Shown here one piece after another: positions 1-14,051 of a stretch of 20,252 nucleotides of DNA; the stretch's first letter is position 1, and the number at the start of each line of letters is the position of its first letter. A model generated the notes under the pieces. That model made no database searches. It was given only the letters and a program-made list of their open reading frames with translations, and was not told the DNA's origin. A program made the position numbers and the translations under genes. Origin of the DNA: a virus; the IMG/VR virus record IMGVR_UViG_3300044846_003501, positions 1 through 20,252 of that record. One strand, 5' to 3'.

Positions 1-69
1 GGGGGTTGCCGCCGTGCCGCCCGCCCTAGCTTCCTCCCTCCTCCCTCCCTTTTATGGTAGGCAAACAAA

Positions 70-89
70 TTGACAGAAAGGCGTTGACA
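70..89 (+). promoter_or_regulatory. Two direct TTGACA boxes upstream of the first gene
   Basis: Two perfect TTGACA hexamers lie at 70-75 and 84-89, about 50-70 bases before the first probable start codon at 138. Each matches the sigma70 -35 consensus. No good -10 hexamer follows at 16-18 bases; the region after the second box is only weakly TA-rich, with a TCTTAT at 110-115. They may be one -35 element plus a duplicated operator half, or chance. Sequence 1-60 before them is a C/T-rich tract with no recognisable gene. Confidence 0.25.
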
Positions 90-137
90 TACCGCCGCCC
101 GTGCCTTTGTCTTATCCCGCAACCCAATATTAAACAT

Positions 138-332
138 ATGAATAACTCAGATAATTCCTTCTCAAAATTCTTTCCTAAGCCCCGCAAGGTGGCCCGCAAG
201 CCTAAGGGCTTAACCGCACCAAAACCGCCGAAAGCGAAAACCGCCGCTTCCTGTAAATCAGAAATTACCCGTGCCGCTAATTCCGCCGCAACCCAGGTTT
301 ACAATTCTCTTTATAATCCTCTCCGCAAATAA
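138..332 (+). CDS. Small basic Lys/Pro-rich protein, unknown
   Basis: A 64-residue protein I do not recognise. Its first half is very basic and proline-rich, with repeated PKP/RKP/PPK motifs; the second half is an Ala/Ser/Asn-rich stretch. The lysines and prolines suggest nucleic-acid binding or an unstructured tail, but this is inference. An in-frame ATG at 54 would add 28 residues. I prefer 138 because it sits behind the short AT-rich leader (CATATG) seen at other genes in this block, and the longer form would read through the TTGACA boxes. It is first in a co-directional series and ends in TAA, as all its neighbours do. Confidence 0.5.
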   Translation: MNNSDNSFSKFFPKPRKVARKPKGLTAPKPPKAKTAASCKSEITRAANSAATQVYNSLYNPLRK

Positions 333-350
333 CCCCTTCTCTTCCTTCCT

Positions 351-434
351 ATGCGCTTTCTTTCTGACTTATTCACCGCCGCCGCGATCGTCGCCCTTGC
401 CTGGTATGCCGCCGTCTGCGTTATGTCCCTTTAA
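351..434 (+). CDS. 27-aa single-pass membrane peptide
   Basis: A very short reading frame encoding 27 residues, beginning MRFLSDLF and continuing as an almost wholly hydrophobic stretch rich in Ala, Val and Trp up to MSL. This looks like one transmembrane helix with a short charged N-terminus. It fits between the preceding TAA (330-332) and the next start at 436, and a CT-rich leader (CTTCTCTTCCTTCCT) stands directly before its ATG, as at other starts in the block. The frame contains a GCGATCGT element in codons for Ala-Ile-Val. It could be a real micro-membrane protein or a chance frame. Confidence 0.4.
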   Translation: MRFLSDLFTAAAIVALAWYAAVCVMSL

Positions 435-435
435 T

Positions 436-492
436 ATGAAAAGCCCCGCCCTAATAAAAGCCCGCCGTGCCTTTGCCGCCGCCCGCAAATAA
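436..492 (+). CDS. 18-aa basic peptide frame, doubtful
   Basis: An 18-residue frame, MKSPALIKARRAFAAARK, starting one base after the preceding TAA and ending in TAA 10 bases before the next start. It is basic and could form an amphipathic helix. The only support is its exact fit in the gene series and the same TTTAATATG start context. It may equally be a spacer. No function is proposed. Confidence 0.2.
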   Translation: MKSPALIKARRAFAAARK

Positions 493-502
493 TTTTTCTA
501 AT

Positions 503-889
503 ATGAAGCCCCACCCCATCCCGCCCGCGATCGTCGCCGCATTGTTTGACGTTGAACATATTGCTGACCAGCTTGCCGCAACCTTTTGCGATTACCCCGC
601 TAAGGGTTTAATGCCGGCGGAAACCGCCGCTTGCCTGGATAACTTGGATACGGTCGCCGCCGCCCTTACATGGAAAGAGCTGGAACAAGCCCCGGCCATG
701 TTGAACGCCGTTGCCCGTGCTTACCGTCAATCCTTCCCCAGTGATTCCCTAGGGTGGGAAGATGCCGGACGGTTGCAAACGATTGCCGCCCTTATTTCCC
801 ATTGGCAAACCTTGCCAGATAACGGCAGCGCAACCCCGCCCCCGCCCCCGCCCCCGCCTGATAACGGCACGGGCGGCGGACTCATTTAA
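503..889 (+). CDS. Hypothetical Ala-rich helical protein with polyproline tail
   Basis: A 128-residue protein I do not recognise. Residues 1-105 look alpha-helical, Ala/Leu-rich and mildly acidic. A run of eight prolines follows at about 112-119, then a DNGTGGG tail. Polyproline next to a Gly-rich end is usual for a flexible linker or a tail that contacts a partner. The upstream start at 467 is less likely: ATG 503 follows TTTTTCTAAT, the leader type shared by this block, while the extension would overlap the 436-492 frame. Ends in TAA. Confidence 0.6.
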   Translation: MKPHPIPPAIVAALFDVEHIADQLAATFCDYPAKGLMPAETAACLDNLDTVAAALTWKELEQAPAMLNAVARAYRQSFPSDSLGWEDAGRLQTIAALISHWQTLPDNGSATPPPPPPPPDNGTGGGLI

Positions 890-899
890 TTCCCTACAT

Positions 900-1292
900 A
901 TGAAAACAACCCAATATCAGAAAACCGCCGCCCGTGCAATTTATGCCGCCGCCGCGATCGCCACGGCGAAAGCTGGCCTTAGCATTGTTGCCGTTAATAT
1001 TCAACCCGGCGACCCCTTGCGGAACAAACCAGGCAACCTTTTGATTGCCTGGACAGCTGGCCCGGTTTGGGGTGAATTGAAATTTGAATTCCGCCGCTTT
1101 CCTATGCAATTGATTGCCGTAGGTAAACCGCAAGGGGTTTGGGTAAGGGTTAACGGCACGGCATCAACGCCGGCGGGCTTCCCTATGCTTCCCTCCCTTA
1201 TCAACGCACTTTCCGCGATCGCGATCGCCGCCGTTGACGTTGCCGATATACAAATGCCGCAAGGTGCTGTTTACGTTGATGCCGCCGAATAA
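900..1292 (+). CDS. Hypothetical 130-aa protein
   Basis: Not recognised. The N-terminal 35 residues are hydrophobic (poly-Ala, Ile, Val) after a polar MKTTQYQKTAAR start, so a weak membrane or signal-like segment is possible. The middle (about 45-100) alternates hydrophobic and charged residues in beta-strand fashion, and the C-terminus has another Ala/Ile-rich stretch. Two overlapping GCGATCGC elements at 1215-1228 encode the Ala-Ile-Ala-Ile-Ala-Ala part. Start 900 is chosen because TTCCCTACAT precedes it. Ends in TAA. Confidence 0.55.
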   Translation: MKTTQYQKTAARAIYAAAAIATAKAGLSIVAVNIQPGDPLRNKPGNLLIAWTAGPVWGELKFEFRRFPMQLIAVGKPQGVWVRVNGTASTPAGFPMLPSLINALSAIAIAAVDVADIQMPQGAVYVDAAE

Positions 1293-1314
1293 CCCCGCCG
1301 CCCTTTCCCTACCC

Positions 1315-1521
1315 ATGAAACCCAAAAAACAAACCGTGCCGCCGGTCAAAGCGGCAAAGCAAAAGAAGATCACCGCCGCAAATGTTATATGGTGGCTAGG
1401 ATGCGAAAACCCTACCCGGCAAAACCTGAATGAAGCGGCGCAAATGTTGGCCGAAATTGCAAATGGAACATACAAACCGCAAACCTTGCGGGAGGACATT
1501 TCAGGCACTTGCAATCTTTAA
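1315..1521 (+). CDS. Small basic protein, unknown
   Basis: A 68-residue protein. The first 20 residues are Lys/Pro-rich (MKPKKQ, KQKK). The rest, with NLNEAAQMLAEIANGTYKPQTLREDI, looks like two short helices around a turn. It could bind DNA, but no helix-turn-helix pattern is convincing. ATG 1315 is preferred over the upstream in-frame ATG at 1234, which would lie inside the preceding gene; CTTTCCCTACCC stands directly before 1315. Ends in TAA. Confidence 0.5.
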   Translation: MKPKKQTVPPVKAAKQKKITAANVIWWLGCENPTRQNLNEAAQMLAEIANGTYKPQTLREDISGTCNL

Positions 1522-1534
1522 CCCTTACCCCTTT

Positions 1535-2449
1535 ATGAAACCCATAAATCCGCCCGCCGTGCCGTCCGTCAACCTATGCCCGCCTATTGCCCCGCCGTTG
1601 CACAGGGGCGATTACGCAACCCCTGGCCCGCTACTATTTCGCAAGCCCGCCGCCGCGATCGTTCACCCCGCCGCTTTGCTTCCCTTCTTTATGCCGTCCT
1701 ATTTGCTTTCGGTCGAAGCGGACGCTAAAACGGATAAAGGCACGGCAAGCGGTTACCTTACGGGGATTCTTTACCTTGCCCCAGGCCAGCTTGCCGGCGT
1801 TGGCAACCTTTGCCCTAATGCTTCCGCAGGTTGCCTTGCCGCTTGCCTATTTACGGCGGGGCGGGCGGGCATATTTGAAGCGGTCAATAAAGCCCGTGTT
1901 ATGCGTACCCGTTTCCTTCACGATAACAAAGCGGGCTTTATTGCCGCCCTTAAAGGGGAAATTGCCGCCTTAGTCCGTAAGGCAAAGCGGCGGGGCTTAC
2001 GGCCGGTTGTAAGGTTGAACGGCACAAGCGATCTCCCTTGGGAAAAGTTAGCCCCTGAGCTATTCACTGACTTCCCCACCGTGCGCTTTTATGATTACAG
2101 TAAGAGCTTACGCCGTGCCATTGCCTACGCTAAGGGCGAATTGCCTAAGGGTTACCATATTACCTTTTCCCTTGCGGAGAATAACGCCGCCGCCGCCGCG
2201 ATCGCCCTTGCCGCCGGTGTTAACGTGGCGGCGGTTGCGGACGGCATCAAAGCGGGGCAACGGTTTGCCTTGCCTGGTATGACCGAAGCCCGCCCCACCT
2301 TTTCCGCTGACCGCCATGACTTGCGCTTTCTTGACCGGCGGTCGCCGGACGGCCGGGGCAGGATTGGAATCCTAAAAGCAAAAGGCAAAGCACGGGGCGA
2401 CACTTCGGGCTTTGTAATCCGTGCAACCGCCGCAACCGCCGCCGCCTAA
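1535..2449 (+). CDS. DUF7227 / Gp88-like phage or plasmid protein
   Basis: A 304-residue protein, the largest in the left block. Residues 1-55 are a Pro/Ala-rich leader. The core from about 58 to 235 matches my recollection of a phage/plasmid family (DUF7227, related to Gp88-like proteins): TGILYLAPG, then CPNASAGCLAACLFTAGR with cysteines at 93, 100 and 104, RFLHDNKAGF, RLNGTSDLPWE, VRFYDYSK and YHITFSLAENN. The three clustered cysteines suggest metal or Fe-S binding. The family has no established biochemical role that I know of. The C-terminus (after about 245) includes HDLRFLDRR and ends in Ala/Thr repeats. The start at 1535 is set by a CCCTTACCCCTTT leader. Confidence 0.65.
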   Translation: MKPINPPAVPSVNLCPPIAPPLHRGDYATPGPLLFRKPAAAIVHPAALLPFFMPSYLLSVEADAKTDKGTASGYLTGILYLAPGQLAGVGNLCPNASAGCLAACLFTAGRAGIFEAVNKARVMRTRFLHDNKAGFIAALKGEIAALVRKAKRRGLRPVVRLNGTSDLPWEKLAPELFTDFPTVRFYDYSKSLRRAIAYAKGELPKGYHITFSLAENNAAAAAIALAAGVNVAAVADGIKAGQRFALPGMTEARPTFSADRHDLRFLDRRSPDGRGRIGILKAKGKARGDTSGFVIRATAATAAA

Positions 2450-2459
2450 TTTCCCTAAT

Positions 2460-2879
2460 ATGCGAAAACCAATCCATCCCCTAATTCATCAGGCAATTGA
2501 TGCCGCTTTTTGCGTCATTCAAGAGGCTTATGACCCCATTAACCGATTTGATGCGGGCGGCCAGGCCGACCACTATTCCGAAAAATTTCAAACATTTGAC
2601 GCGATCGCGGAAGCCTTGGCCCATTATTCCGAATGGGAAGCGGCCAGGGTGAAAACGGCGAGAGCTTCCGCCGCCGAGGTTCAAGTTACCCCCGCAATGG
2701 CCGCTTCAATTGTTTCCCTTTTGGAAAACCCCGCCGCCTATGCGCTTGTGGGGTGGGAAGAGGCAATGGAAGACGAAAGGCCCGCTGAGTTTAAAGCCTG
2801 GGAAGACAAGTTAAACGCCGCCCTTGCCGCCCTGGGTTCTAAACATACCTTTGAAACCTTGCGCCGCTTCAATGGATAA
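2460..2879 (+). CDS. Hypothetical acidic helical protein
   Basis: 139 residues, not recognised. Predominantly helical and acidic (WEEAMEDERPAEFKAWEDK), with aromatic-rich N-terminal helices. A GCGATCGC lies at 2601-2608 inside codons for Ala-Ile-Ala. The in-frame ATG at 2421 falls inside the upstream gene; ATG 2460 follows TTTCCCTAAT and is preferred. The stop overlaps the next start by 8 bases (ATGGATAA), which suggests translational coupling. Confidence 0.6.
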   Translation: MRKPIHPLIHQAIDAAFCVIQEAYDPINRFDAGGQADHYSEKFQTFDAIAEALAHYSEWEAARVKTARASAAEVQVTPAMAASIVSLLENPAAYALVGWEEAMEDERPAEFKAWEDKLNAALAALGSKHTFETLRRFNG

Positions 2880-3147
2880 CGAAAACACAAAAGGGCAATT
2901 TCATCAAATTGCCTTAATGCATTCGGCGGCGGATTGCCTAGGGATTGAACCGCACCGGGGCGGGGTAAGTTCGCAAGGCCAGCTTTGCCTTGCAATGGGG
3001 CAAAAATCCGCAAATCGCCTTTCCGCCTTTTGCTTTGCAAGGTGGGGCTGGTCTCCTTCTCAAATCACGTTTGACGCCGCTTTGCCTAAGCTCCGCAAGG
3101 GGGCTTGGATTGCAACGGACATCCCCACCCCTTCCGCTAATGGATAA
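2872..3147 (+). CDS. Hypothetical 91-aa protein, coupled
   Basis: 91 residues, not recognised. It has three cysteines, aromatic residues (FCFARWGWSPSQ) and LRKGAWI. It begins MDNE within the last 8 bases of the previous gene and ends in the same 8-base overlap with the next one, so the three genes 2460-3658 are probably translated together. An upstream in-frame ATG at 2824 lies within the previous gene and is not needed. Confidence 0.55.
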   Translation: MDNENTKGQFHQIALMHSAADCLGIEPHRGGVSSQGQLCLAMGQKSANRLSAFCFARWGWSPSQITFDAALPKLRKGAWIATDIPTPSANG

Positions 3148-3658
3148 CGCCGCCAGCTTTCAATTTCCCCTTGGCAAGCGGTGGCCCGTTGTTTGCCGCG
3201 ATCGCGTCATCCGCAAAGCTGTCTTAACTGGGCGGGATGTTTTCTATAATGACGTTTACCTGGCGGCGGTTCAATTGACCGCTTCAGGCAGGCGGCGGAC
3301 GGTTTCCGGCTGGTTTGCCTGGGATTCAGAAAAGGGTTATTTTCGCTTTTTCGCAACCGGGGCAAATGCCGCCCTTATCCCGTTAACTGGACACAAGCCC
3401 CGGCTGGCAAAGCTGGCCCGCAAATTGATTGCCGCAACCTCTTACTCCAAAAGGGCGGAGGGATTGCCTAGCGATCACGCCGCCGCCCTTGCCTATATGT
3501 GCCAAACGGAAGCGGCGGGATTGACTGAGATAAGCGGCCAGGAAAGCCCCGGGTGGCTTGTGCGCCGCATATTGTGCCGCTTGTGGGGCGAAGACGTTGA
3601 AAGATTAGCTTTATTTTTCGACCGGCTGGCCCGCTTCCAATCCGCCGCCGGTGAATAA
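3140..3658 (+). CDS. Hypothetical 172-aa protein, last gene of left block
   Basis: 172 residues beginning MDNAASFQFPLGKR. Residues 1-85 look beta-rich (VVCRDRVIRKAVLTG, TVSGWFAWDSEKGYFRFF); the rest is helical and Arg/Leu-rich (RLAKLARKLIAAT, WLVRRILCRLWGEDVERLALFFDRLARF). It might be a small nucleic-acid-binding protein, but no family is recognised. It starts inside the preceding gene's stop (ATGGATAA) and ends 23 bases before a strong terminator stem. A long extension upstream to 2990 overlaps the previous gene and is rejected. Confidence 0.6.
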   Translation: MDNAASFQFPLGKRWPVVCRDRVIRKAVLTGRDVFYNDVYLAAVQLTASGRRRTVSGWFAWDSEKGYFRFFATGANAALIPLTGHKPRLAKLARKLIAATSYSKRAEGLPSDHAAALAYMCQTEAAGLTEISGQESPGWLVRRILCRLWGEDVERLALFFDRLARFQSAAGE

Positions 3659-3681
3659 GCCCCGCGATCGTCCGCCCTTAC

Positions 3682-3710
3682 AAGCCCCGCCCCGTGCGGG
3701 GCTTTTCTTT
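3682..3710 (+). terminator. Intrinsic terminator closing the left gene block
   Basis: A perfect 9-bp stem, AAGCCCCGC at 3682-3690 and GCGGGGCTT at 3696-3704, with a CCCGT loop, followed by TTCTTT to 3710. It lies 24 bases after the TAA of the 172-aa gene. This is a textbook rho-independent terminator and indicates that 138-3658 is one or more transcripts ending here. Confidence 0.85.
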
Positions 3711-4049
3711 TCCCTAGTGCTTACCCGTGCAACCGTGCCGCACAAGCCCCGCCCTTTGCCTTTGCCGCCGCTTTGCCGTCCGCCCTTCCCCTTTCCCCTT
3801 TCCGCCCCGCCGCCGCCCGCCTGGGGCAATCCAGGCACGTTTTCCGCCCCGTCCGTTTGCCGCCCGCCCTTGCGATTGCGATCGCGATCCCGTTTGCCCT
3901 TGCGTTTGCGATCGCGATCCCGTTTGCCCCGCTTGGATTGGTACGGCAACCCCTTTGCCAGCCCGCCGCTGGCCCGTGCCGCCCCGTTTGGACGGCAACC
4001 CAGGCCCGCCGCCGTCAGTGATCCCCGCCCGCCGGCGACCTAATCCCCA
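3711..4049. other. Non-coding C-rich stretch with HIP1 repeats
   Basis: About 340 bases after the terminator without a credible gene. The + strand is strongly C-rich. Open frames exist (for example 3651-4043, GTG start), but they translate to Pro/Arg low-complexity sequence and run through the terminator hairpin. The only structure seen is a 30-base tandem duplication at 3871-3930 carrying GCGATCGC twice. The sequence looks like the tail of the left block: HIP1-type palindromes end here. Confidence 0.5.
3871..3930. repeat. 30-bp tandem duplication with GCGATCGC
   Basis: Two adjacent 30-base units, 3871-3900 and 3901-3930, differ at two positions (A/T at unit base 5 and the last base). Each contains GCGATCGC immediately followed by GATCCC, then GTTTGCC. 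A two-copy tandem repeat could be a replication slippage product or a pair of protein-binding sites. Confidence 0.8.
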
Positions 4050-4071
4050 CCCATAACCCACCCATAACCCA
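4050..4071. repeat. CCCATAACCCA, exact 11-bp tandem repeat
   Basis: CCCATAACCCA occurs at 4050-4060 and again immediately at 4061-4071. The same 11 bases occur once more at 8141-8151, just before the SSB-like gene, and with one change (CCCATAATCCA) at 8710-8720 before the next gene. All copies are intergenic, so this is probably a binding site or control element of the phage. Confidence 0.65.
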
Positions 4072-4080
4072 CTTTTAATC

Positions 4081-4123
4081 ATAGGTTTACGACCTATCAT
4101 TCAGTAATCCTGATAAGATTACT
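4081..4123. repeat. Two adjacent perfect inverted repeats
   Basis: ATAGGT (4081-4086) pairs with ACCTAT (4092-4097) across a 5-base loop. AGTAATC (4103-4109) pairs with GATTACT (4117-4123) across a 7-base loop, and GATTAC recurs at 4127-4132. No T-run follows, so these are more likely protein-binding sites or cruciforms than terminators. Confidence 0.65.
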
Positions 4124-4250
4124 AATGATTACATAATTCAAATTTGTCGAAAACGCAATTTTCCGACGATCAACTCATACTGACCCCCCCCCCTCGCCCA
4201 ATTTTCAAAAAGTTTTTCCCATAAAAAAAGTTTTCTGCGACCCGCGCCTC

Positions 4251-4311
4251 GGGATTTTTTTGGGATTTTTTGGGGATTTTTTGCGTAGATAAATCGCCCT
4301 TAATCTACGCA
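4251..4311. repeat. Phased GGGATTTTTT triplet followed by 9-bp inverted repeat
   Basis: Three successive units, GGGATTTTTTT, GGGATTTTTT and GGGGATTTTTT, cover 4251-4282 at 10-11 base spacing, one helical turn. T-tracts at this spacing are known to bend DNA. Immediately after comes a perfect inverted repeat, TGCGTAGAT (4282-4290) and ATCTACGCA (4303-4311), with a 12-base loop. Confidence 0.65.
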
Positions 4312-4480
4312 CCGTCGACACGTCGAATTGCATATGTCGATTTATTATAGATAACTTTAGTCCAATAAAGACAGGCATTGTATAGGCCACTTTCTGCCGG
4401 CTACGCATGGCCGATATGAATAATCCGAAAACGAAGACCCCCTAAAATATTGCGACCCCTTTTTATTTTCCGAAGGATTT

Positions 4481-4541
4481 CCCCCCCCTGGGGGATAAAT
4501 ATTTGATTGCCTTTCTTTTTTCGGGGGGTACCCCTAGGGGG
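4481..4541 (+). promoter_or_regulatory. G/C-tract hairpins directly upstream of the lysozyme-like start
   Basis: C8 at 4481-4488 abuts G5 at 4490-4494. Further on, G6 (4523-4528), TA, CCCC (4531-4534), TA and GGGGG (4537-4541) run up to the ATG at 4542. CCCC can pair with the G-tract on either side, giving two mutually exclusive hairpins, one of which buries the bases next to the start codon. This could modulate translation; mechanism is inferred. Confidence 0.4.
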
Positions 4542-5015
4542 ATGACCAAGAACGCTATGCTTACGCTTGCTGCCATGCTCGCAGCCATGCCTGTCGAAGC
4601 CCGAGAGAAGGCTCACCTTCTAATCCTGACCAACGCCATCGGCGCGGTGGAGAGCGGGATGAACTACGCCGCACAGGGAGATTCTGGCAAGGCTCTGGGA
4701 GCTTGGCAGGTACACGTCGCCGCATGGATCACCGCCAACCAATGGCGTATCAAGGAGGGGTTGCCGTCTATCTCGCGCAAGGAGTGGCGGGTGCCTGACA
4801 ACCAACGGAACATTGCCGTGGCATATGTGACGTGGTGCCGTGACCGCCTGGTCGACGACGGCATTGAGAACCCGTCGCCTGAGCAAATCTACTTGGCCTT
4901 TACGATGGGCTTTGCTGGGGCAAAGGCGGTGGGCCACTCCCTCGTCACTGCGCCGAAGAAGAAGGCGGACGCTGCGGAGCGGGTGGGAAACATCTACCGA
5001 GAACTTATTAAGTGA
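4542..5015 (+). CDS. Lysozyme-like / lytic transglycosylase-type muramidase
   Basis: 157 residues. NAIGAVESGMNYAAQGDSGKALGAWQV (about 31-57) matches the SLT/lysozyme-like fold: a catalytic glutamate in AVESG (E37), then GxWQV. The later YLAFTMGFAGAKAVG corresponds to the AxxYNxGxxxV part of these enzymes. It would cut peptidoglycan glycan strands at lysis or entry. The N-terminal 20 residues (MTKNAMLTLAAMLAAMPVEA) resemble a short export signal with AxA-like cleavage, so Sec-dependent export is possible. An upstream ATG at 4503 is rejected because it would translate the G/C hairpins. The gene overlaps the next by 4 bases (GTGA). It stands apart from the minus-strand lysis genes 12 kb away, so a virion-associated or recycling role is an alternative. 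Confidence 0.65.
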   Translation: MTKNAMLTLAAMLAAMPVEAREKAHLLILTNAIGAVESGMNYAAQGDSGKALGAWQVHVAAWITANQWRIKEGLPSISRKEWRVPDNQRNIAVAYVTWCRDRLVDDGIENPSPEQIYLAFTMGFAGAKAVGHSLVTAPKKKADAAERVGNIYRELIK

Positions 5016-5452
5016 AATCTTACCTCTGCATCGACCCCGGAGCCTCTGGCGGCTGGGTGCTTCACGGGGATACGGGAAACTGCATCCAAGGCGGGAATGA
5101 GGAGCTGGCTGACCTTTGCCCGTCGATCAACACGACCGTGGTCGTGGAGAAGGTGCCGGCGTTCGTCGGCCCTATACCGGCGTCGGCGTCGTTCAAGCTG
5201 GGGTACTCTTACGGCTGGATTGTGGGCCTGTGGCAGGGGCGCGGATTCAAGGTCGTGCTGGTGACCCCGCAGGAGTGGCAGAAGACGATGGGGGTCGGCA
5301 CTAAGAAGGGTGGCGGGCATACTACGACCGAGTGGAAGAATAAGTTAAAGGCCGAAGCCCAACGCCGCTTCCCCAATACTATGGAAAAAATTACGCTCAA
5401 AACTGCTGATGCTTTTTGCTTGCTCTCCCACGCGCAGCAATTCAACCTTTGA
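5012..5452 (+). CDS. RuvC-like Holliday junction resolvase
   Basis: 146 residues with a GTG start overlapping the upstream TGA. The RNase H-like fold of RuvC is indicated by LCIDPGASGGWVL (D8), VVVEKVPAF (E46), KVVLVTPQEWQKTMG and the C-terminal TADAFCLLSHA (D133), in the order and spacing of the catalytic acidic residues. Phage enzymes of this type cleave four-way junctions and branched replication intermediates before packaging. Length fits small phage RuvC homologues. Placement next to recombination genes supports the role. Confidence 0.75.
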   Translation: MKSYLCIDPGASGGWVLHGDTGNCIQGGNEELADLCPSINTTVVVEKVPAFVGPIPASASFKLGYSYGWIVGLWQGRGFKVVLVTPQEWQKTMGVGTKKGGGHTTTEWKNKLKAEAQRRFPNTMEKITLKTADAFCLLSHAQQFNL

Positions 5453-5467
5453 TTCCTAGCCACTCCC

Positions 5468-5659
5468 ATGATTACGAAATATCACAACCGAGTCGAAGCC
5501 ACCGAAGTGGCCGACATCCCTGAAGCCGACCGTATCGTCCGTGAGGAACGAGCCGCCGGCAAACACCGCTTCCAGCTCGTCGCCCGTGGCGAACTGAAGG
5601 CCGAACTCGACGCCGAAGCCTTGATGGATTCGCTCGTACCTTGGAACCGCCTGGTCTAA
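5468..5659 (+). CDS. Hypothetical 63-aa charged protein
   Basis: A small, highly charged, mostly helical protein (EADRIVREERAAGKHRFQLVARGELKAEL). No family recognised. It starts 15 bases after the RuvC-like gene, and the next start follows 7 bases after its stop, so it belongs to the same operon. No Shine-Dalgarno sequence precedes it. Confidence 0.6.
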   Translation: MITKYHNRVEATEVADIPEADRIVREERAAGKHRFQLVARGELKAELDAEALMDSLVPWNRLV

Positions 5660-5666
5660 TCTTTCC

Positions 5667-5876
5667 ATGATCACCAAACTAGTTAAGACCCCTCCAGCTC
5701 GCCTGCTGGCATCCATTCCAGATACCGAGTACGTCGTCCTTTCGGACGGCACCGTTGCTCGCCGGCTCAAGCCCTATGTGGTCAACACGAAGGTGTCGTA
5801 CAATATGATGCTAGACGGCGTCCTCCGCCGTATCTCCAGCCGCAAACTTCTAGCCGCCGCTAAGGCCGTCGCCTGA
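5667..5876 (+). CDS. Hypothetical 69-aa protein
   Basis: Residues 17-60 (IPDTEYVVLSDGTVARRLKP ... NMMLDGVLRRISSRKLLAAAK) look like a compact beta-alpha domain. The SDGTVARRLKP pattern recalls the short strand pair found in NUMOD4-like segments of phage homing proteins, but no nuclease motif is present. It is probably a small DNA-associated protein; function unknown. Stop and next start share one base (TGATG). Confidence 0.55.
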   Translation: MITKLVKTPPARLLASIPDTEYVVLSDGTVARRLKPYVVNTKVSYNMMLDGVLRRISSRKLLAAAKAVA

Positions 5877-6076
5877 TGGAGACCGTGCTTAAAAGTTTCC
5901 TGCTGGTCACCGCCACCTGTTTTATCAGCGTGGCAACCGTCGCCTTCCTAGGCGTCCTCAAGGCTCGCCGCGCCGCCGATAAGACCGACGACGACATGGC
6001 CAAGGGGATGCTTGCCAGCCTGGTCTGCTGGATGCTAGGCGGTCTTTTCCTTTTCTTCGCTTACCTCGTCGCCTAA
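5876..6076 (+). CDS. Two-span small membrane protein
   Basis: 66 residues with two hydrophobic segments, about 6-27 and 47-65, separated by a charged loop (KARRAADKTDDDMAKG). Not recognised. It sits between a small hypothetical gene and the RecT-like gene and is read in the same operon. Phage early operons often carry such small membrane proteins; an effect on the host envelope or superinfection is possible but not shown. Confidence 0.55.
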   Translation: METVLKSFLLVTATCFISVATVAFLGVLKARRAADKTDDDMAKGMLASLVCWMLGGLFLFFAYLVA

Positions 6077-6077
6077 C

Positions 6078-6851
6078 ATGGAACCCAACGAACTGACGCC
6101 CGTCGTCACAATCCCAAACGAAGTCGGCGTCTCCGCCGGCGTCTATGATCGCATCACCGACCCGATGCAGGCCATCAAGACTCTTGGCCTAGCCATCTTC
6201 AAGTCCGGCATCTTCGGCCTTGATAAGCCCGAGCAGGGCGAGATTCTGGCCATGCAATGTATGGTCGAAAAGAAGTCCCCGCTGGAATTGGCGCGGACGT
6301 ACCACTTCATCCAAGGGCAGCTCGCCATTCGTGCCGACGCTCTGTTGGCTAAGTTCCACCAGGCTGGCGGCAGCGTCGACTGGACTGAGCGTACCGACGA
6401 GAAGGTGAAGGCCACCTTCCGCAAGGGAACCGCCTCCGCCGAGATTGTGGCCGACATGAAGGAGTACGTCGCCAACGGCACCGCGCTGGGTAAGGACGGC
6501 AAGCCCAAGGACAACTGGAAGAAGTGGCCCCGCCGTATGCTTACCGCCCGTGCAATCAGCGAAGGCGTTCGCCTCATCGCCCCGGAGTGCTGCTTCGGAA
6601 CCTACACCGTTGAGGAATTCGACCCCCCGTCTTCCCGTTCTTATAACCATGTGTCGAAGCAGGGAGACGTAAGCCTCGACGAACTGATCAACGTCGAGTA
6701 CCGCCCTGCCGCCGTCGCCGTGCTGCGCGAGAGTGGTCACTTGACTCCCGAGCAGGATTGGGCAGACATCTCGCCAGACCTCGCCGAGACTCTGGCAAAG
6801 AAGCCCGGGCCTTTCTGGGCTGCGGTCAAAGCCAAATATTTCACCCTATGA
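6078..6851 (+). CDS. RecT-family single-strand annealing recombinase (probable)
   Basis: 257 residues. Features that match RecT-type phage annealing proteins are: a helical N-terminal part with GEILAMQCMVEKKSPLELARTYHFIQGQLAIRADALLAKF, a beta-rich middle (GGSVDWTERTDEKVKATFRKG), and DNWKKWPRRMLTARAISEGVRLIAPE followed by TYTVEEF, the conserved W-PRRML-AR-G-R signature. These proteins coat and anneal complementary single strands, working with a 5'-3' exonuclease. Such a nuclease gene lies two genes downstream, and an SSB-like gene follows. The last 4 bases overlap the next start. Assigned from motif memory, without alignment. Confidence 0.72.
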   Translation: MEPNELTPVVTIPNEVGVSAGVYDRITDPMQAIKTLGLAIFKSGIFGLDKPEQGEILAMQCMVEKKSPLELARTYHFIQGQLAIRADALLAKFHQAGGSVDWTERTDEKVKATFRKGTASAEIVADMKEYVANGTALGKDGKPKDNWKKWPRRMLTARAISEGVRLIAPECCFGTYTVEEFDPPSSRSYNHVSKQGDVSLDELINVEYRPAAVAVLRESGHLTPEQDWADISPDLAETLAKKPGPFWAAVKAKYFTL

Positions 6852-7117
6852 AAAAACCCAAAGCCACCAAAGCAAAGCCCACGGATGACGGCATCGTCGT
6901 CCACGAATTCCGCCCTCTGCCCGACCGTCCCCCGGAAGAGCAGGTCAAGGCACTTACGCAGATCGTTCACCAGATGAGCCAGAACTGTTTCGAGGTTCGC
7001 CTGGAGATGAACGACCTGCGCGAGCAGAACGTCGCCCTGAAGGCCGAACTAGTTTACTTGAGGGGCATCTCTGACGCTCAAGCCCAAAAGAACTACTTAA
7101 ACCTTTTCAAAAACTAA
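6848..7117 (+). CDS. Small coiled-coil protein
   Basis: 89 residues. A basic N-terminus (MKKPKATKAK) is followed from about 32 by a heptad-like helix (QVKALTQIVHQMSQNCFEVRLEMNDLREQNVALKAELVYLRG), which should form a coiled coil. Not recognised. ATG 6848 overlaps the RecT-like stop by 4 bases, supporting coupling; the longer frame from 6758 is inside that gene. It may be an accessory oligomerising partner of the recombination proteins, by position only. Confidence 0.55.
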   Translation: MKKPKATKAKPTDDGIVVHEFRPLPDRPPEEQVKALTQIVHQMSQNCFEVRLEMNDLREQNVALKAELVYLRGISDAQAQKNYLNLFKN

Positions 7118-7118
7118 C

Positions 7119-7343
7119 ATGGAACGTCAACTCATTCTAGACCTCTTCACGGGAGCAATGGCCGTCATGGTCTTCGCCTTCCTGTGGGTCGGTCTCCTGA
7201 TCTCCCGTAAGCACGTCAACTGGGAGAACAATTACGAAAGCGTCGGCTACATCTTCATGTGCCTGCTGGTGGCCGTCGCCACCCTCGCCTGCACGGTCAA
7301 CGCCTACTTCTGGTTCACCGAACATATTATCTACATCCCATGA
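7119..7343 (+). CDS. Two-span small membrane protein
   Basis: 74 residues with hydrophobic segments at about 7-28 and 41-66 and a short polar loop (SRKHVNWENNYES). It resembles the 66-aa membrane protein at 5876 in architecture but not in clear sequence. It lies between the coiled-coil gene and the nuclease gene, overlapping the latter by 4 bases. Unknown function. Confidence 0.55.
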   Translation: MERQLILDLFTGAMAVMVFAFLWVGLLISRKHVNWENNYESVGYIFMCLLVAVATLACTVNAYFWFTEHIIYIP

Positions 7344-8128
7344 GCAACACCATCCCCGACGACGCCTATTCCACCCATGCCGGTTTGAGCCAAAGCGGCG
7401 CGAAGGAGCTACTCCGCTCCCCAGCCCACTTTAAGCAGTACCTTGAGCGTGACCGCTCCGAGCAGACGCCCGCGCAGCGTCTCGGTACGCTGATCCACCT
7501 CGCTTCGCTCCAGCCTAAGGTGTTCGACGCCACCATCGTCGTCGCCCCGGAGTGCGATAAGCGGACTTCCGCCGGCAAGGAGATTTGGGCCTCGTTCCAG
7601 TCCTCCCTGAAGCCTGGCCAAGAGGCCATCAGCCAGAAAGACAGCGAGCTGGTTACCAATGTCTCCATCGCTGCCCGTGCCGGCCTCGACAAGTTAATGA
7701 AGGACTTGGACGGCGAGTACATGATCACCGAAGTCCCGATGGTCGGTCGTGTGAACGGCACCGACATCAAGGGCAGGCTCGACGCCATCATCACGACTAA
7801 GGCTGGCAAGCGTATCGTCGTAGACATCAAGACGACAATGGACGCCGGTGCGGAATCCTTTGGTAGGGATATTGCCAATTATAAATACTTCCTACAGCAG
7901 GCGTGGTATACGACGCTGGCTCACGCCGATCAGTTCGTCTTCTTGGCCGTCGAAAAGGACGCGCCGAATTGCTGGGCGTGTTATCAGCTCGACGAGGCGT
8001 CGCACCAGAAGGGTCTTGTGCTGATGAATTCGGCCATTGACCTGTTTAAGTCCTGCAACACGTTCAAGCAGTTCCCCGGCTACCCGCAGGAAGTCCAGAC
8101 CCTGAGCCTCCCTAAGTGGGTTCAGTAA
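7340..8128 (+). CDS. RecE / exonuclease VIII-like PD-(D/E)XK nuclease
   Basis: 262 residues. The N-terminus LSQSGAKELLRSPAHFKQYL and LGTLIHLA (48-55) match the phage exonuclease VIII-like family (PD-(D/E)XK, RecB-like fold). Catalytic motifs follow in order: E131, GRLDAI (D148), VVDIKTT (D162-K164) and QQAWY (186-190), the QxxxY motif. It should resect double-strand ends 5' to 3' to make substrate for the RecT-like protein encoded upstream. ATG 7340 overlaps the preceding stop (ATGA). The longer frame from 7259 is inside the membrane-protein gene. Confidence 0.8.
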   Translation: MSNTIPDDAYSTHAGLSQSGAKELLRSPAHFKQYLERDRSEQTPAQRLGTLIHLASLQPKVFDATIVVAPECDKRTSAGKEIWASFQSSLKPGQEAISQKDSELVTNVSIAARAGLDKLMKDLDGEYMITEVPMVGRVNGTDIKGRLDAIITTKAGKRIVVDIKTTMDAGAESFGRDIANYKYFLQQAWYTTLAHADQFVFLAVEKDAPNCWACYQLDEASHQKGLVLMNSAIDLFKSCNTFKQFPGYPQEVQTLSLPKWVQ

Positions 8129-8140
8129 TTTCCACCCAAA

Positions 8141-8151
8141 CCCATAACCCA
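8141..8151 (+). promoter_or_regulatory. CCCATAACCCA motif upstream of SSB-like gene
   Basis: Exact copy of the 11-base unit tandemly repeated at 4050-4071, 17 bases before the ATG at 8169. A near copy, CCCATAATCCA, lies at 8710-8720 before the gene at 8729. Position suggests a regulator site or a translation-leader element. Confidence 0.4.
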
Positions 8152-8168
8152 AAACACAAGATACCATC

Positions 8169-8618
8169 ATGGCATTCAAGTTCAACCCCAACGCCGCCGA
8201 GGATCGTAAGTACGTTTCCAAGGCCGGCACCTACACCTGCACGGTGTCGGCGTTCAAGCAGGACTACCTCCCGCCCCGCGCTGACCTGTACGCCCGCATC
8301 ACCTTCGTCACCAGCGAAGGCGAGAGCGTTTACGGCGATCTGTTCGCCAAGCCCGATAAGAACGGTGGCCACGACCGCCTGGAGCAGTTTGTTGCTGCCA
8401 CGGCCAACGACGAGGAGATTAAGAAGTACATCTCCGGCGGCGAGCTGGAGGTCGACGAAGCCTTCCTGACCGCCGTCTGCACCCGTGCGGTCACCCGTAG
8501 CCTCAAGGTCAAGGTGACCGAGCGCAAGTACACCAAAAAGGACGGTTCGGAGGGGGTGGCCTACCAGGCGTCCTTCTTTACCCGCCTGCCGGCTGGCCCC
8601 GAATCCATCCCCTTCTAA
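8169..8618 (+). CDS. Single-stranded DNA-binding-like protein
   Basis: 149 residues. Beta-rich with Lys/Arg and aromatic residues (AGTYTCTVSAFKQDYL, DLYARITFVTSEGESVYGDLF, RSLKVKVTERKYTKKDG), consistent with an OB-fold or DUF669-type phage protein. It ends in PESIPF: the terminal IPF imitates the C-terminal tip of bacterial SSB that docks partner proteins, though the acidic run is weak. Its position just after the RecE-like nuclease fits a recombination/replication ssDNA-binding role. It is the last gene before a strong terminator. Confidence 0.6.
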   Translation: MAFKFNPNAAEDRKYVSKAGTYTCTVSAFKQDYLPPRADLYARITFVTSEGESVYGDLFAKPDKNGGHDRLEQFVAATANDEEIKKYISGGELEVDEAFLTAVCTRAVTRSLKVKVTERKYTKKDGSEGVAYQASFFTRLPAGPESIPF

Positions 8619-8639
8619 GGGGGGGCTAGGCGGTACTTT

Positions 8640-8666
8640 AGGGGGAACGAAAGTTCCTCCTTTTTT
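8640..8666 (+). terminator. Intrinsic terminator with GAAA tetraloop
   Basis: AGGGGGAAC (8640-8648) pairs with GTTCCTCCT (8653-8661) around a GAAA loop, with one G-U wobble, and is followed by six T (8661-8666). A GNRA tetraloop stabilises the stem. It lies 21 bases after the SSB-like stop and should end the early transcript starting near 4542. Confidence 0.88.
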
Positions 8667-8699
8667 GTGCTTGTGTTGTCCACGGCAATATACACAACA
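8665..8699 (+). promoter_or_regulatory. Possible promoter with operator dyad
   Basis: Directly after the terminator, TTGTGC (8665-8670) and TATACA (8689-8694) are spaced 18 bases, a weak sigma70-like pair. A dyad TGTTGT (8674-8679) / ACAACA (8694-8699) overlaps the -10 box. A new promoter is expected here because the upstream transcript ends at 8666 and the genes from 8729 onward are closely packed. Confidence 0.35.
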
Positions 8700-8728
8700 G
8701 GTCTTGCCACCCATAATCCATAACACCC

Positions 8729-9061
8729 ATGAAACTCACAAAGAAACAAGAACTCGCCCTCGCCCTCGCTGACTACAAGGAGTGCATCAGCATCAAACAA
8801 CTCTTCCAGCCGGAGTTCGCCAATGAATGGGCGTACTCCCTCTGGACGTGCAAGTGGCCTCACGACGCTGGTCAGGTCACCAACTGCCACGGCGGCGAGC
8901 CTAACCGCTACTGGTTCGACAAGCGTATCTGTGCTTCCGAATTGCGCGGCTGCGTCCAACTCGACCCAACCTGCGAACATATCGTCCTCGTCCGTGGTGG
9001 GAAGCGTCCGCAGTACACAATCCTCGACGCCAACAAGTACCGCACCCTTGTTGCTGCCTAA
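8729..9061 (+). CDS. Hypothetical 110-aa protein
   Basis: Not recognised. It has a helical Lys/Leu/Ala-rich N-terminus (MKLTKKQELALALADYKE), a middle with Trp, Cys and His (WTCKWPHDAGQVTNCHGGEPNRYWF), and LRGCVQLDPTCEH. Paired Cys/His residues could bind zinc, but spacing fits no finger I know. It looks like a small winged-helix plus metal module. The helicase start follows one base after its TAA. Confidence 0.55.
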   Translation: MKLTKKQELALALADYKECISIKQLFQPEFANEWAYSLWTCKWPHDAGQVTNCHGGEPNRYWFDKRICASELRGCVQLDPTCEHIVLVRGGKRPQYTILDANKYRTLVAA

Positions 9062-9062
9062 C

Positions 9063-10550
9063 ATGGAACTGAAGCTCCGAGACTATCAGGAAGCCGCCGT
9101 CACCGCCGCGCTGTCCTTTATTGCGAAGGCCGTCAACCCGCTAGTGATCGCACCGACGGGTGCCGGCAAGACCGTCATCGCCTCCAGCATTATGCTGCGC
9201 TGGCAGACTGGCACGACCCGCAAGTGTTTCTTCGTCGCCCACCGTAAGGAACTTATCGACCAGGCTAAGGCCACGATGGATAAGTTCGGCGTCCGGGGCG
9301 AAGCCCTGAGCGTTTTCTCCGCTGACTTTGACCATATCTCCGCCGAAGATAAGGCCACCGCGCTGGTCGTCTTCGACGAAGCCCACCATGCCGTCGCCTC
9401 TTCGTGGGCTAAGTTCAACGCCGTGTTCACCGGCCCGAAGGTCGCCGTGACCGCCACCCCTGATCGCCTCGACCGCCAGAAACTGGAGACGGTCGGTTTC
9501 GTGCCAGCCTACGAGATTGCGATTCGCACCCTTATCGAGCAGGGGCACCTTGTCCGCCCTATGGCTCAGAAGATGCCCGTGGAGATGAGCCTTATCCGCC
9601 TGCGCGGTTACGACGACGCCCTTGAGGCCGTGGCCGACTCCATTGTCAGCGAGCTGAACCGATGGGATCGCAAGAAGGCCATTTGCTTCCTGCCCGAGGT
9701 TGATACCTCCATCCGCCTAGTCGCCTTGCTCCGCCAGCGCGGCGTCGAGGCCGGCCACGCCGACGGCAGCACGGGCAAGTTCCGTGCCGGCACGGTCGAA
9801 GCCTTTAAGAACGGCGAGCTTCGGGTGCTGTGCAACGTGAACCTGTTCACCGAAGGGTTCGACGCCCCCGAGACCGATTGCGTCATCCTGCTGCGTCCGA
9901 CCCAGTCCCGCGCCCTTTGGTGCCAGATGATTGGCCGTGGTCTCCGCACGGCTCCAGGCAAGACCGATTGCCTCATCCTCGACCCCATGTGGATCAGCGG
10001 GGAGAATTCCTTCACGCCAGCAGACGCCTTCACGGTTCACCCTATGGCTAAGTCCGCAGCAATCGAAGGCGGGCATGACCCTCTGGACGCCGCCGAAGCC
10101 TGCGACCGTCAGGCCGAGGAAAGTATGCTCCGCCGTATCGCCTCCGAAGAGCAGCGGTCGGCGACCAAGGAAGCCAAGGAACTGGGGCTGGTCGACCTAT
10201 CGGTCGCCTGCGCGGTGTTTGGGTTCGTCCTGCCGGCTCCGACCACGGAGTCCGCCATGTTCGGCTATCAAGCCTCCGAATTAGCCCGCTACGGCGTCCA
10301 CGCCCGTGGTATGACCGTTGACCAGGCTGACTGGATGATCGCCCGCCTGAAGGCACGGGAAGCCCTTAATCTGGCCACCCTGAAGCAGGTTCGCAAGCTC
10401 CAGCAGTTTGGGGTGCGCGGTGCCGACCGCCTGTCGAAGGAATCGGCGTCGAAGGCCATCTCATCCGACTGGCGTATGCAAAAGGGGGCTGTTTCTAAAT
10501 CCCCCCTCCAAAAAATTTACGGACGCATTTTCGATAACTATGATGCCTAA
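9063..10550 (+). CDS. SF2 DNA helicase (DEAH, UvsW/RadD-like)
   Basis: 495 residues. Helicase motifs are clear: LRDYQEAAV (Q-like), APTGAGKT (Walker A, 30-37), HRKELIDQA (Ia), FDEAHH (II, 104-109), TATPDR (III, 130-135), LFTEGFDAPETDCVI (V, about 261-275) and QMIGRGLR (VI, 288-295). Order and length match phage superfamily 2 helicases of the UvsW/RadD-like type, which remodel forks and branched DNA. The C-terminal 180 residues are helical with no obvious nuclease. The long in-frame upstream part from 8823 is the out-of-frame shadow of the preceding gene; ATG 9063 after TAAC is the natural start. Confidence 0.88.
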   Translation: MELKLRDYQEAAVTAALSFIAKAVNPLVIAPTGAGKTVIASSIMLRWQTGTTRKCFFVAHRKELIDQAKATMDKFGVRGEALSVFSADFDHISAEDKATALVVFDEAHHAVASSWAKFNAVFTGPKVAVTATPDRLDRQKLETVGFVPAYEIAIRTLIEQGHLVRPMAQKMPVEMSLIRLRGYDDALEAVADSIVSELNRWDRKKAICFLPEVDTSIRLVALLRQRGVEAGHADGSTGKFRAGTVEAFKNGELRVLCNVNLFTEGFDAPETDCVILLRPTQSRALWCQMIGRGLRTAPGKTDCLILDPMWISGENSFTPADAFTVHPMAKSAAIEGGHDPLDAAEACDRQAEESMLRRIASEEQRSATKEAKELGLVDLSVACAVFGFVLPAPTTESAMFGYQASELARYGVHARGMTVDQADWMIARLKAREALNLATLKQVRKLQQFGVRGADRLSKESASKAISSDWRMQKGAVSKSPLQKIYGRIFDNYDA

Positions 10551-11130
10551 AAACAATAAGCCGCTGGTCTTTATGATCACCGGGGTCGCTCGCGCGGGGA
10601 AGGACACCTTCGCCGCTTGTCTGATGGAACACTTCAACGGCAACGGCAACCGTGCCGAGGTGTTTAAGTTCGCCGACGTGCTGAAGGAACGGGCGAACGA
10701 CGTGCTTCGGGCTATGGGAGTCTTCAAGGCTGGGGAGCGAGACTTCCACGCCGAAGATTTCAAGGTCAAGAATCGGGGGCTGCTGGTCGAATTAGGTCGT
10801 ACCCTCCGGGGGGTCGACAAAGACATCTTCGCACGGCACCTGAACGCGCAAGTGGCCTTGTTCATGGATTACGCGCCGCTGGATGTCCGCCCTATCGCCC
10901 TTATCTCCGATTGGCGTTATTTGAATGAGTACCTCTTTCTGGCCAAGCACCTTGAGGTGCAGATCGTGACGGTCGAGATTCAGCGTCCAGGCTTCGGGCC
11001 GGCGAACGACGAAGAGGCGGGCAGCTTGGCTGACATGATGTCGGCGATGCAGATACTGCATACTCGATTGGCGGTTGACCCTGCCGGCGTTCGTGCCGTA
11101 GCGTCCGAACTGTACCATATCTACCGATGA
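10540..11130 (+). CDS. Deoxynucleoside monophosphate kinase
   Basis: 196 residues. LVFMITGVARAGKDTFA gives a P-loop (GVARAGKDT, 15-23) of the GxxxxGKDT type seen in phage dNMP kinases. VFKFADVLKERANDVLRAMG, LLVELGRTLRGVDKDIFARHL and ALISDWRYLNE (an Asp-Trp-Arg segment) fit the substrate-binding and lid regions. It would phosphorylate dNMPs, possibly modified ones, for phage DNA synthesis. ATGATG at 10540/10543 gives two possible starts differing by one residue, both overlapping the helicase stop. Confidence 0.75.
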   Translation: MMPKNNKPLVFMITGVARAGKDTFAACLMEHFNGNGNRAEVFKFADVLKERANDVLRAMGVFKAGERDFHAEDFKVKNRGLLVELGRTLRGVDKDIFARHLNAQVALFMDYAPLDVRPIALISDWRYLNEYLFLAKHLEVQIVTVEIQRPGFGPANDEEAGSLADMMSAMQILHTRLAVDPAGVRAVASELYHIYR

Positions 11131-11426
11131 GCAAATTTATTCCCGTTGATCCAGATAAGTGGGCTGAGATGGTCAGGGCATGGGCCGACTTGCCGCGCTG
11201 GAAAGAGATTTGCGACGAGCTGGACGCCCGTTGTAACGAACTCAAGGCCGAGAACCAAAGGCTGCGTGAATCGTCTTTTGTCACCGCCGTCCCCTCCCAT
11301 CAATACGAGCGCGTCATCAAAGCAGGTGATGCGATGGCTGAAGACCTCCCGCAGTTTGGGAGCGTTAAAGAATGGAACGCCGCCAAAAACGGATGGGACA
11401 CCTCCAAGGAGGGCAGGCAGTCGTGA
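11127..11426 (+). CDS. Hypothetical helical/coiled-coil protein
   Basis: 99 residues. N-terminal KWAEMVRAWADLPRWKEICDELDARCNELKAENQRLRES is a long amphipathic helix with coiled-coil character; the C-terminus (DLPQFGSVKEWNAAKNGW) looks globular. Not recognised. It overlaps the preceding gene by 4 bases (ATGA) and the following by 4 (GTGA). Confidence 0.55.
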   Translation: MSKFIPVDPDKWAEMVRAWADLPRWKEICDELDARCNELKAENQRLRESSFVTAVPSHQYERVIKAGDAMAEDLPQFGSVKEWNAAKNGWDTSKEGRQS

Positions 11427-11683
11427 TTAAGCCAAAGCGATATCTTTGCGGCGGGTATGTTGGACTCATGCATGAGTTTGCAAAAGGTGATTGGGTTAAT
11501 TGGTCGGACTATGCATTATTGCAGGCCGAGGTAAAACGGCTTCAGAATAACTGCGATTACCTTGACCAGAAACTGGACGAGGAAATCGACAAGTCCGCCA
11601 TGCTTTGCGGTCAAATCGAACGGCTGACCGACGCCATTACGCGCGGTACGGCTATCACTCCAGACGCCCACCCCCAGCCATGA
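11423..11683 (+). CDS. Hypothetical 86-aa protein, GTG start
   Basis: Begins at GTG 11423 inside the preceding stop (GTGA). Residues 1-30 contain KRYLCGGYVGLMHEFAKGDWVNW; 31-70 form an acidic helix (LLQAEVKRLQNNCDYLDQKLDEEIDKSAML). Function unknown. The ATG at 11372 in the same frame lies within the preceding gene and is less likely, but the start remains uncertain. Confidence 0.45.
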   Translation: MIKPKRYLCGGYVGLMHEFAKGDWVNWSDYALLQAEVKRLQNNCDYLDQKLDEEIDKSAMLCGQIERLTDAITRGTAITPDAHPQP

Positions 11684-11832
11684 AGAAGCGTCGCCCCGAG
11701 ATCATGCGACCCGGACGCAAGCAGCAGACCCCCATCGAGATTAAGGCCACCGCGCTGGCTCTAAAGGCCGACCGTGATCGCTGGACTAAACTTATGGCTC
11801 AACCCCTTAACCAATGGAAACCCGTCGTCTGA
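11680..11832 (+). CDS. 50-aa basic peptide
   Basis: Fifty residues, strongly basic (MKKRRPEIMRPGRKQQT), then a helix (KATALALKADRDRWTKLMAQ). It overlaps the upstream stop by 4 bases and the next start at 11814 by 19 bases. It may bind nucleic acid; not recognised. Confidence 0.45.
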   Translation: MKKRRPEIMRPGRKQQTPIEIKATALALKADRDRWTKLMAQPLNQWKPVV

Positions 11833-11999
11833 ACCGAAAGGAAGCTTATGGCCTGGTCAAGCAAGCCGTGGTCGAAGGCCATGCCGCCTGCATGACCTAC
11901 GCCGAAGTTGTAGCCAAGTACGCCGTCCGCCTGGAAAGCCTTTACTCCGCTGCCAAGCGTCTCGGCCTTTCCCTTAAACCCTCCAAGCATAACAAATGA
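11814..11999 (+). CDS. Small helix-turn-helix-like protein, paralogue A
   Basis: 61 residues. VKQAVVEGHAACMTYAEVVAKYAVRLESLYSAAKRLGLSL reads as a helix-turn-helix of the type 'MT..E.A..Y....S....AA.RLG', as in resolvase or MerR-type minimal DNA-binding domains. It resembles the 71-aa protein at 12855 (shared AVVEG, MT, E, Y, L, AA-R-G-S positions). Its last 4 bases overlap the start of the first methyltransferase, so it may regulate or guide that enzyme; this is inference. Confidence 0.55.
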   Translation: METRRLNRKEAYGLVKQAVVEGHAACMTYAEVVAKYAVRLESLYSAAKRLGLSLKPSKHNK

Positions 12000-12613
12000 A
12001 AGTCTTGGAACTTTTCGCAGGATCGCGATCCATTGGTCAACAAGCCGAGGCTTTAGGCATGGAAGTATTTTCATCTGACATAAATCCTTTCCAAGGAATT
12101 CATTATGTCGTTAACATTCTTGAATTCGATGTTAACAAAGTACCATTTAAACCCGACATTATATGGGCATCCCCTCCTTGCACCACTTTTAGCGTGGCGT
12201 CTATCGGCCATCATTGGACTGGCGGCTCCAAGGCTTACATTCCCAAGTCTGCGTCCGCACAGGTTGGGCTTGCAATTGCGTTGAAGACCAAAGCCATCGT
12301 CAGGCATTTTAACCCACTTTTCTTTTTTATTGAGAACCCCCGTGGCCTGCTTCGCAAAATGGATTTCATGCAAGACATGATGCGTCATACGGTGACTTAT
12401 TGCCAATATGGCGACACCCGGATGAAGCCTACGGATATTTGGACTAACAACATGAATTGGAACCCAAGGACAGTATGTAGGAACGGAGACCCTTGTCATG
12501 TGGCAGCTCCCCGTGGGTCTAGAACTGGGACGCAAGGAATTAACGGTACCTATGACCGAAGCAAAATCCCTGAAAAACTTTGTCAAGAAATTCTTCAATC
12601 ATGCATACTATGA
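11996..12613 (+). CDS. Short C5-cytosine DNA methyltransferase
   Basis: 205 residues. Motifs: ELFAGSRSIG (I, 5-14), ASPPCTTFSVAS (IV, catalytic Cys62), FFIENPRG (VI, Glu113, with ENP rather than ENV) and YCQYGDTRMKPTDIWTNN (VIII-like, 135-152). This is the catalytic core of a Dcm-type enzyme that methylates carbon 5 of cytosine. At 205 residues it is far shorter than the usual 300-450, with no visible target-recognition domain. Codon use is noticeably AT-richer than its neighbours, which suggests recent acquisition. It overlaps genes on both sides by 4 bases. No restriction gene is nearby, so it is probably self-protection of phage DNA. Confidence 0.75.
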   Translation: MKVLELFAGSRSIGQQAEALGMEVFSSDINPFQGIHYVVNILEFDVNKVPFKPDIIWASPPCTTFSVASIGHHWTGGSKAYIPKSASAQVGLAIALKTKAIVRHFNPLFFFIENPRGLLRKMDFMQDMMRHTVTYCQYGDTRMKPTDIWTNNMNWNPRTVCRNGDPCHVAAPRGSRTGTQGINGTYDRSKIPEKLCQEILQSCIL

Positions 12614-14013: not shown

Positions 14014-14051
14014 CGCATAGGGGGTACGGGGGGATAACGATTCCGCCACCT

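Follow-up and report, generated by a model that had tools for sequence, protein, structure and literature searches.

The DNA analysed here, called the window or, in comparisons, G000, is a 20,252-base virus record of IMG/VR (IMGVR_UViG_3300044846_003501), and its left 4 kb carries a cluster of the palindrome CGATCG, which resembles the iterated palindrome HIP1 of cyanobacteria. This left part is a plus-strand gene row in which the GP88-family gene (PF17338, phrog_1617; 1535–2449, +), used as the island marker, is the only gene with a known family, scoring 139.5 bits against PF17338, where the curated cut-off is 24.4. The remaining named genes of the row, all on the plus strand and of no known family, are g2 (503–889), with homologues in most relatives, g3 (900–1292), g4 (1315–1521), g6 (2460–2879), g7 (2872–3147) and g8 (3140–3658). 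The row ends in a terminator-like inverted repeat with a T-rich tail (3680–3712, +), which was read from the sequence and has a matching stretch in relatives. The maximal-scoring segment of distinct k-mer signature (6–4032, +), termed the island, has 12 CGATCG in 4,027 bp; it is cut by the left end of the window, its left edge being visible only in relatives. To its right lies an A+T- and homopolymer-rich boundary zone (4033–4500), common to relatives and without CGATCG.

Relatives were collected by IMG/VR scans with GP88, g8, the exonuclease, the metallophosphoesterase and RuvC. The comparison set comprises 14 GP88-bearing genomes, i.e., G000 and 13 IMG/VR relatives, some of them about 36–37 kb long. 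Every relative (n = 13) has a compositionally distinct island of 2.6–4.2 kb. Among the 14 genomes, island tetranucleotides CCGC, TTGC and GCAA are raised and GTCG, CGAC, CTGC, CTCG and GAGC lowered, and the island codons are Leu TTG/CTT, GAA, AAA, CAA, TTT, ATT and GTT instead of CTG, GAG, AAG, CAG, TTC, ATC and GTC. The left block, which the original prediction had set apart by its palindromes, is thus sharply distinct in oligonucleotides and codons as well. Contig L144, which shares this backbone and carries gp88 and g8 homologues of a more distant kind, lacks a strong island signature; the genes therefore do not dictate the signature.

In oriented relatives, the order of late genes (minus), island (plus) and replication genes (plus) is kept as far as the contigs reach. 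The island lies between a minus-strand late operon starting with terminase genes and a plus-strand replication operon, and from this position and orientation we infer that it is an early-gene cassette of the phage clade. The abrupt change of signature near 4040 would suit a chimeric assembly of a cyanobacterial fragment and a phage, which the original prediction had raised. However, the same gene order is found in independent contigs and homology is unbroken over the junction in four relatives (G001, G002, G004, G005), and chimerism was rejected as having a negligible chance of being true. The companion claim, that the left block was joined to a backbone of another history, fared better. In the backbone tree G000 groups with G012 (support 0.996), and G011, the other palindrome-rich genome, is placed elsewhere, so that the two are not sisters; they show no clear grouping in the GP88 tree, and the topology of the island-gene tree differs from that of the backbone. 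Together with the distinct signature, this discordance indicates that the left block probably has a partly separate history.

Palindrome counts in the cassette and the backbone

All 12 CGATCG of the window fall within the left block, eight as GCGATCGC and four as GCGATCGT. The last one starts at 3909, and none occurs in 4041–20252, as the original prediction had stated; each of the 12 site positions that it listed proved exact. In the island, 12 CGATCG were observed, and 0.74 (order-1 Markov), 0.51 (order 2) or 2.2 (order 3) were expected. The 16.2 kb of the window outside it have none against 6.3, 8.0 or 3.1 expected at the same orders. The count is therefore not at chance level, and no similar density exists outside the left block. 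GC content is nearly equal in both parts (0.568 and 0.571) and so is not the cause of the contrast.

The second palindrome-rich island is that of G011, from another metagenome, with 10 CGATCG, nine of them GCGATCGC, confined to the homologous island and with none in the other 15.8 kb. The other 12 islands (G001–G010, G012, G013) have 0–2 CGATCG each, and scans with gp88, g8, exonuclease, metallophosphoesterase, RuvC and the boundary motif yielded G011 alone as a further HIP-bearing relative. Pooled, the two HIP-bearing islands have 22 CGATCG, where 1.1 (order 2) to 3.7 (order 3) were expected. The strongly over-represented GCGATCGC, with eight copies in G000 and nine in G011 per ~4 kb island, reaches a density of about 2,000–2,100 per Mb. 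In the G000 cassette CGATCG occurs about once every 400 bp, both in genes (nine of the 12 sites) and between them (three sites).

Chance or codon bias could be at work if Ala-Ile-Ala in alanine-rich proteins yielded GCG ATC GCC, and the island is indeed alanine-rich, with eight of the nine coding sites in the GCG-ATC-G frame. Yet synonymous-codon shuffles of the island genes (n = 5000) gave a mean of 1.4 and a maximum of 6 CGATCG vs the nine observed in coding DNA, one coding site is read in a different frame, three sites lie outside genes, and homologues without the palindrome have almost the same protein sequences. This explanation is very improbable, and base composition or codon use was rejected as the cause by Markov expectations and shuffling.

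The backbone behaves in the opposite way. Over 20 records of the clade, 19 CGATCG were seen in the backbone and about 199–233 expected, a roughly tenfold depletion, and many other 6-bp palindromes are likewise depleted (seen/expected: GGGCCC 0/149, GCATGC 0/105, CCGCGG 1/129, ACGCGT 0/75). A shortage of such palindromes is typical of genomes that evade restriction. Because CGATCG and most other 6-bp palindromes are rare in the clade backbone, the sharp boundary is a product of backbone avoidance plus real island enrichment. In the HIP-bearing islands, GGGCCC, GCATGC, CCGCGG, GGCGCC and GGATCC together were seen 0 times, ~29 being expected (order 3). These islands thus appear to avoid the same palindromes as the backbone except CGATCG, as would be expected if both had evolved in one setting, and this argues against a fresh import.

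Several 6-bp palindromes are wholly missing clade-wide from the G001–G014 backbones, a readable restriction profile of the hosts, and GCCGGC, TGGCCA, GAATTC, GATATC and TGATCA are tolerated or over-represented there. TGATCA was also seen 37 times in the 12 palindrome-free islands vs 7.9 (order 2) or 16.7 (order 3) expected, a result that, like the site spacing given below, is suggestive only because many tests were run. In the G012 island, five of six GATC are TGATCA.

Gain of the sites in place

The sites of the window are scattered along the cassette. The leftmost two, both GCGATCGT, encode A-I-V in the open reading frames (ORFs) 351–434 (site 384–391) and 503–889 (site 527–534). Three copies of GCGATCGC lie in ORF 900–1292, one at 954–961 (A-I-A) and two as an overlapping pair, the first of which (1215–1222) encodes A-I-A and the second of which (1221–1228) is likewise coding. 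In the GP88 gene, GCGATCGT at 1655–1662 gives A-I in G000 vs P-V in most relatives, and GCGATCGC at 2198–2205 replaces a glycine of 13/13 aligned relatives (AAAGIA to AAAAIA). A further GCGATCGC at 2601–2608 encodes A-I-A in ORF 2460–2879, where both aligned relatives have Q-L. The g8 site, GCGATCGC at 3198–3205 in ORF 3140–3658, encodes R-D-R and is the sole alignable site common to G000 and G011, all others being different; both genomes have CRDR here vs CRDG in 12 other relatives. The intergenic sites are GCGATCGT at 3664–3671, directly after ORF 3140–3658, and GCGATCGC at 3878–3885 and 3908–3915, which lie in a C-rich zone as copies 1 and 2 of a 30-bp direct repeat.

Compared with palindrome-free relatives at alignable sites, the motif 8-mers have 0.405 differences per base, where the background is 0.196. 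The comparison with G013, the nearest island, gives 21 differences in 56 footprint bases, with a background of 0.132. Residues absent from all palindrome-free relatives number nine in the motif footprints, where 3.2 were expected (p = 0.0017), and the G011 GP88 site turns LLP into IAA. The doubled divergence and the replacement of conserved residues show that the palindromes arose in place, mainly by point substitution. Most alignable sites have no gap inside the motif, and insertion of a mobile repeat was not favoured, as these sites differ by gapless substitutions.

The original prediction had the left block coming from, or evolving in, cyanobacterial-type DNA. Import of the palindromes with such DNA does not agree with the 12 homologous islands that are without them, with the different sites of G000 and G011, or with the palindrome-making substitutions, which break conserved residues. 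The best or near-best cultured matches of RecT, capsid and terminase are to Verrucomicrobia phage P8625 (NC_029047; RecT 45%, capsid 28%, terminase 24% identity). These matches point to a Verrucomicrobia phage, not to cyanophages, and the host is likely verrucomicrobial. P8625 resembles G000 in its replication gene set with metallophosphoesterase, deoxynucleoside monophosphate (dNMP) kinase, RuvC, helicase and primase; unlike G000, it is without an island and has two CGATCG in 32.9 kb with a flat profile. Judged by the comparisons among islands, signature and palindromes appear to be separate layers, the palindromes being the second and rarer one.

Possible forces acting on the motif

We favour, with a probability of about 0.55, the reading that a HIP1-like iterated palindrome has accumulated within an exchangeable early cassette and is favoured at the DNA level. 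In two of the 14 lineages, point substitution created GCGATCGC or a one-base variant at scattered cassette sites. The backbone would keep purging CGATCG like most 6-bp palindromes and the cassette would be exempt, from which the confinement would follow. We infer the favouring of the motif in the cassette as DNA, and its means may be of two kinds. CGATCG or GATC may be methylated by host or phage, and the hemimethylated sites may bias repair or selection, as considered for cyanobacterial HIP1. Alternatively, a protein may bind the sites along the cassette.

Cyanobacterial HIP1 occurs at 500–2,500 sites per Mb and has been linked to CGATCG and GATC methylation, with repair-biased creation proposed; its deviations concern the outer bases, and some genomes have alternate palindromes (Elhai, PMC4390886). 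The sites described here are like it in the identical 8-mer GCGATCGC, in a density within that range and in being both genic and intergenic. Wherever CGATCG in G000 departs from GCGATCGC (four sites, a small number), it is GCGATCGT, which fits Elhai's pattern of outer-base deviation. The outer context is mostly CGCGATCG (Halothece in the table of PMC4390886), not GGCGATCGCC. Unlike genome-wide HIP1, the sites are confined to one 4-kb cassette in G000 and G011, with 0 in the rest (16.2 and 15.8 kb), and, unlike the HIP1 of cyanobacteria, they belong in G000 to a phage whose backbone is nearest to a Verrucomicrobia phage.

Several observations weigh against the reading we favour. The trait is found in two phages only, and some alignments are uncertain, as gaps occur in 13 of the 37 comparisons made between sites and relatives. 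No tie to a methyltransferase is seen, since the C5-methyltransferases of G000 and G011 differ and several palindrome-free relatives carry such genes; no Dam-type gene exceeded the cut-off in 15 records, and a methyltransferase exclusive to the HIP-bearing phages, sought as a candidate, was not found. A genome-wide methylation bias alone would also leave the confinement to one cassette unexplained. The sites are more evenly spaced than random, but the test is modest (p = 0.008 in G000 with near-adjacent copies merged, 0.069 unmerged; p = 0.027 in G011).

This even spacing, with sites placed regardless of gene borders, fits promoters less well than a dispersed function. The palindromes, with the candidate target CGCGATCGCG, may be operators, stoperator-like, parS-like or packing sites through which a phage or host protein acts on the early cassette, stray sites elsewhere being harmful. 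The perfect palindrome, its fairly even spacing and confinement to the early cassette, and a selection strong enough to alter conserved residues agree with such an array, and the TGATCA excess of palindrome-free islands could be the site of another lineage. Against it, nine of 12 sites are inside genes, neither an integrase nor a repressor was identified among the genes searched, the backbone avoidance of CGATCG holds also in relatives without island sites, and at order 3 the excess of TGATCA is half as large, with some copies shared by descent. Stoperators of Cluster A mycobacteriophages are likewise short sites scattered over phage DNA, but their sequence is asymmetric and a known repressor binds them (PMC9283540), whereas the site here is palindromic and mostly inside genes; among the genes searched, which were not every ORF, no repressor was found that would give it stoperator status. 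Taken as the whole explanation, such an array is rather unlikely.

Exchange with a pool of phages of HIP1-type hosts, whether cyanobacteria or others, is the main rival. The islands of G000 and G011 would have evolved there for long and then recombined into a backbone that itself never met such a host. The disagreement of island and backbone trees, the codon use of the island, which is strongly unlike that of the backbone, and the one HIP site with the g8 start common to G000 and G011 are in its favour. HIP1-type phages do exist: the unrelated, phage-like IMG/VR contig L356, among the matches listed for other HIP clusters, has 26 GCGATCGC in 9 kb and carries a terminase-like and a recombinase-like ORF. 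Its sites occur from end to end of the stretch, as would be the case for a host-wide motif, whereas those of G000 are confined. On the other side, no gp88-bearing IMG/VR contig with HIP sites in the backbone was found, the foreign-looking signature is common to all 12 islands without palindromes, and the HIP-bearing islands share the palindrome avoidance of the backbone. Two scans of 84,980 prokaryote genomes, made to find the host via homologous genes, gave no gp88-clade relative. We regard this exchange as unlikely. Within the mechanism as a whole, methylation-linked bias, a tentative choice, and dispersed binding, a somewhat doubtful one, are about equally likely, and any other cause is improbable.

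The case bears on how HIP1 arises and what it is used for: in one small cassette of two phages, the gain of the palindrome can be followed at each site by comparison with homologues without the motif, the rest of each genome being an internal control. The phage genome also keeps two compositional regimes that differ little in GC and have stayed sharply separated through long divergence. It is conceivable, though doubtful, that HIP-type palindromes are not a feature of cyanobacterial chromosomes alone and that phages of another phylum repeatedly and independently build them in one early cassette and purge them elsewhere under a region-specific, DNA-level force, with lineages lacking CGATCG perhaps using TGATCA instead.

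Backbone genes and flanking zones

To the right of 4.5 kb, the backbone carries genes for RuvC, RecT, exonuclease, helicase, dNMP kinase, C5-methyltransferase, metallophosphoesterase and primase. The first named one is a RuvC-like Holliday junction resolvase gene (5012–5452, +). The C5-cytosine DNA methyltransferase-like gene (11996–12613, +) encodes 205 amino acids. The G011 enzyme, also C5-cytosine, has 324 amino acids and is encoded between metallophosphoesterase and primase (L086:11147–12118); such genes vary among relatives. No RNA families or transfer RNAs (tRNAs) were found in the window, and no tRNA in relatives. Across about 40 contigs, the amino acid identity of the metallophosphoesterase (13067–13789) is 97–100%, with a DNA identity of 84–95% among the compared records, while neighbouring proteins are often 70–90% identical. 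In IMG/VR, some 40–50 close relatives have this metallophosphoesterase.

Long C-rich, low-complexity non-coding zones lie at both island ends, at 3720–4060 and in the left flanks of relatives, and carry short tandem words, e.g., CCGTCCGT in G006. At the left edge of the island, the G007 and G010 contigs begin at an identical place (GTCGG, then a TGGGGCTTCGCCCCC-like hairpin), and the G011 contig begins ~90 bases after it, so that the genome may physically end here, or the assembly may have broken off at the hairpin.

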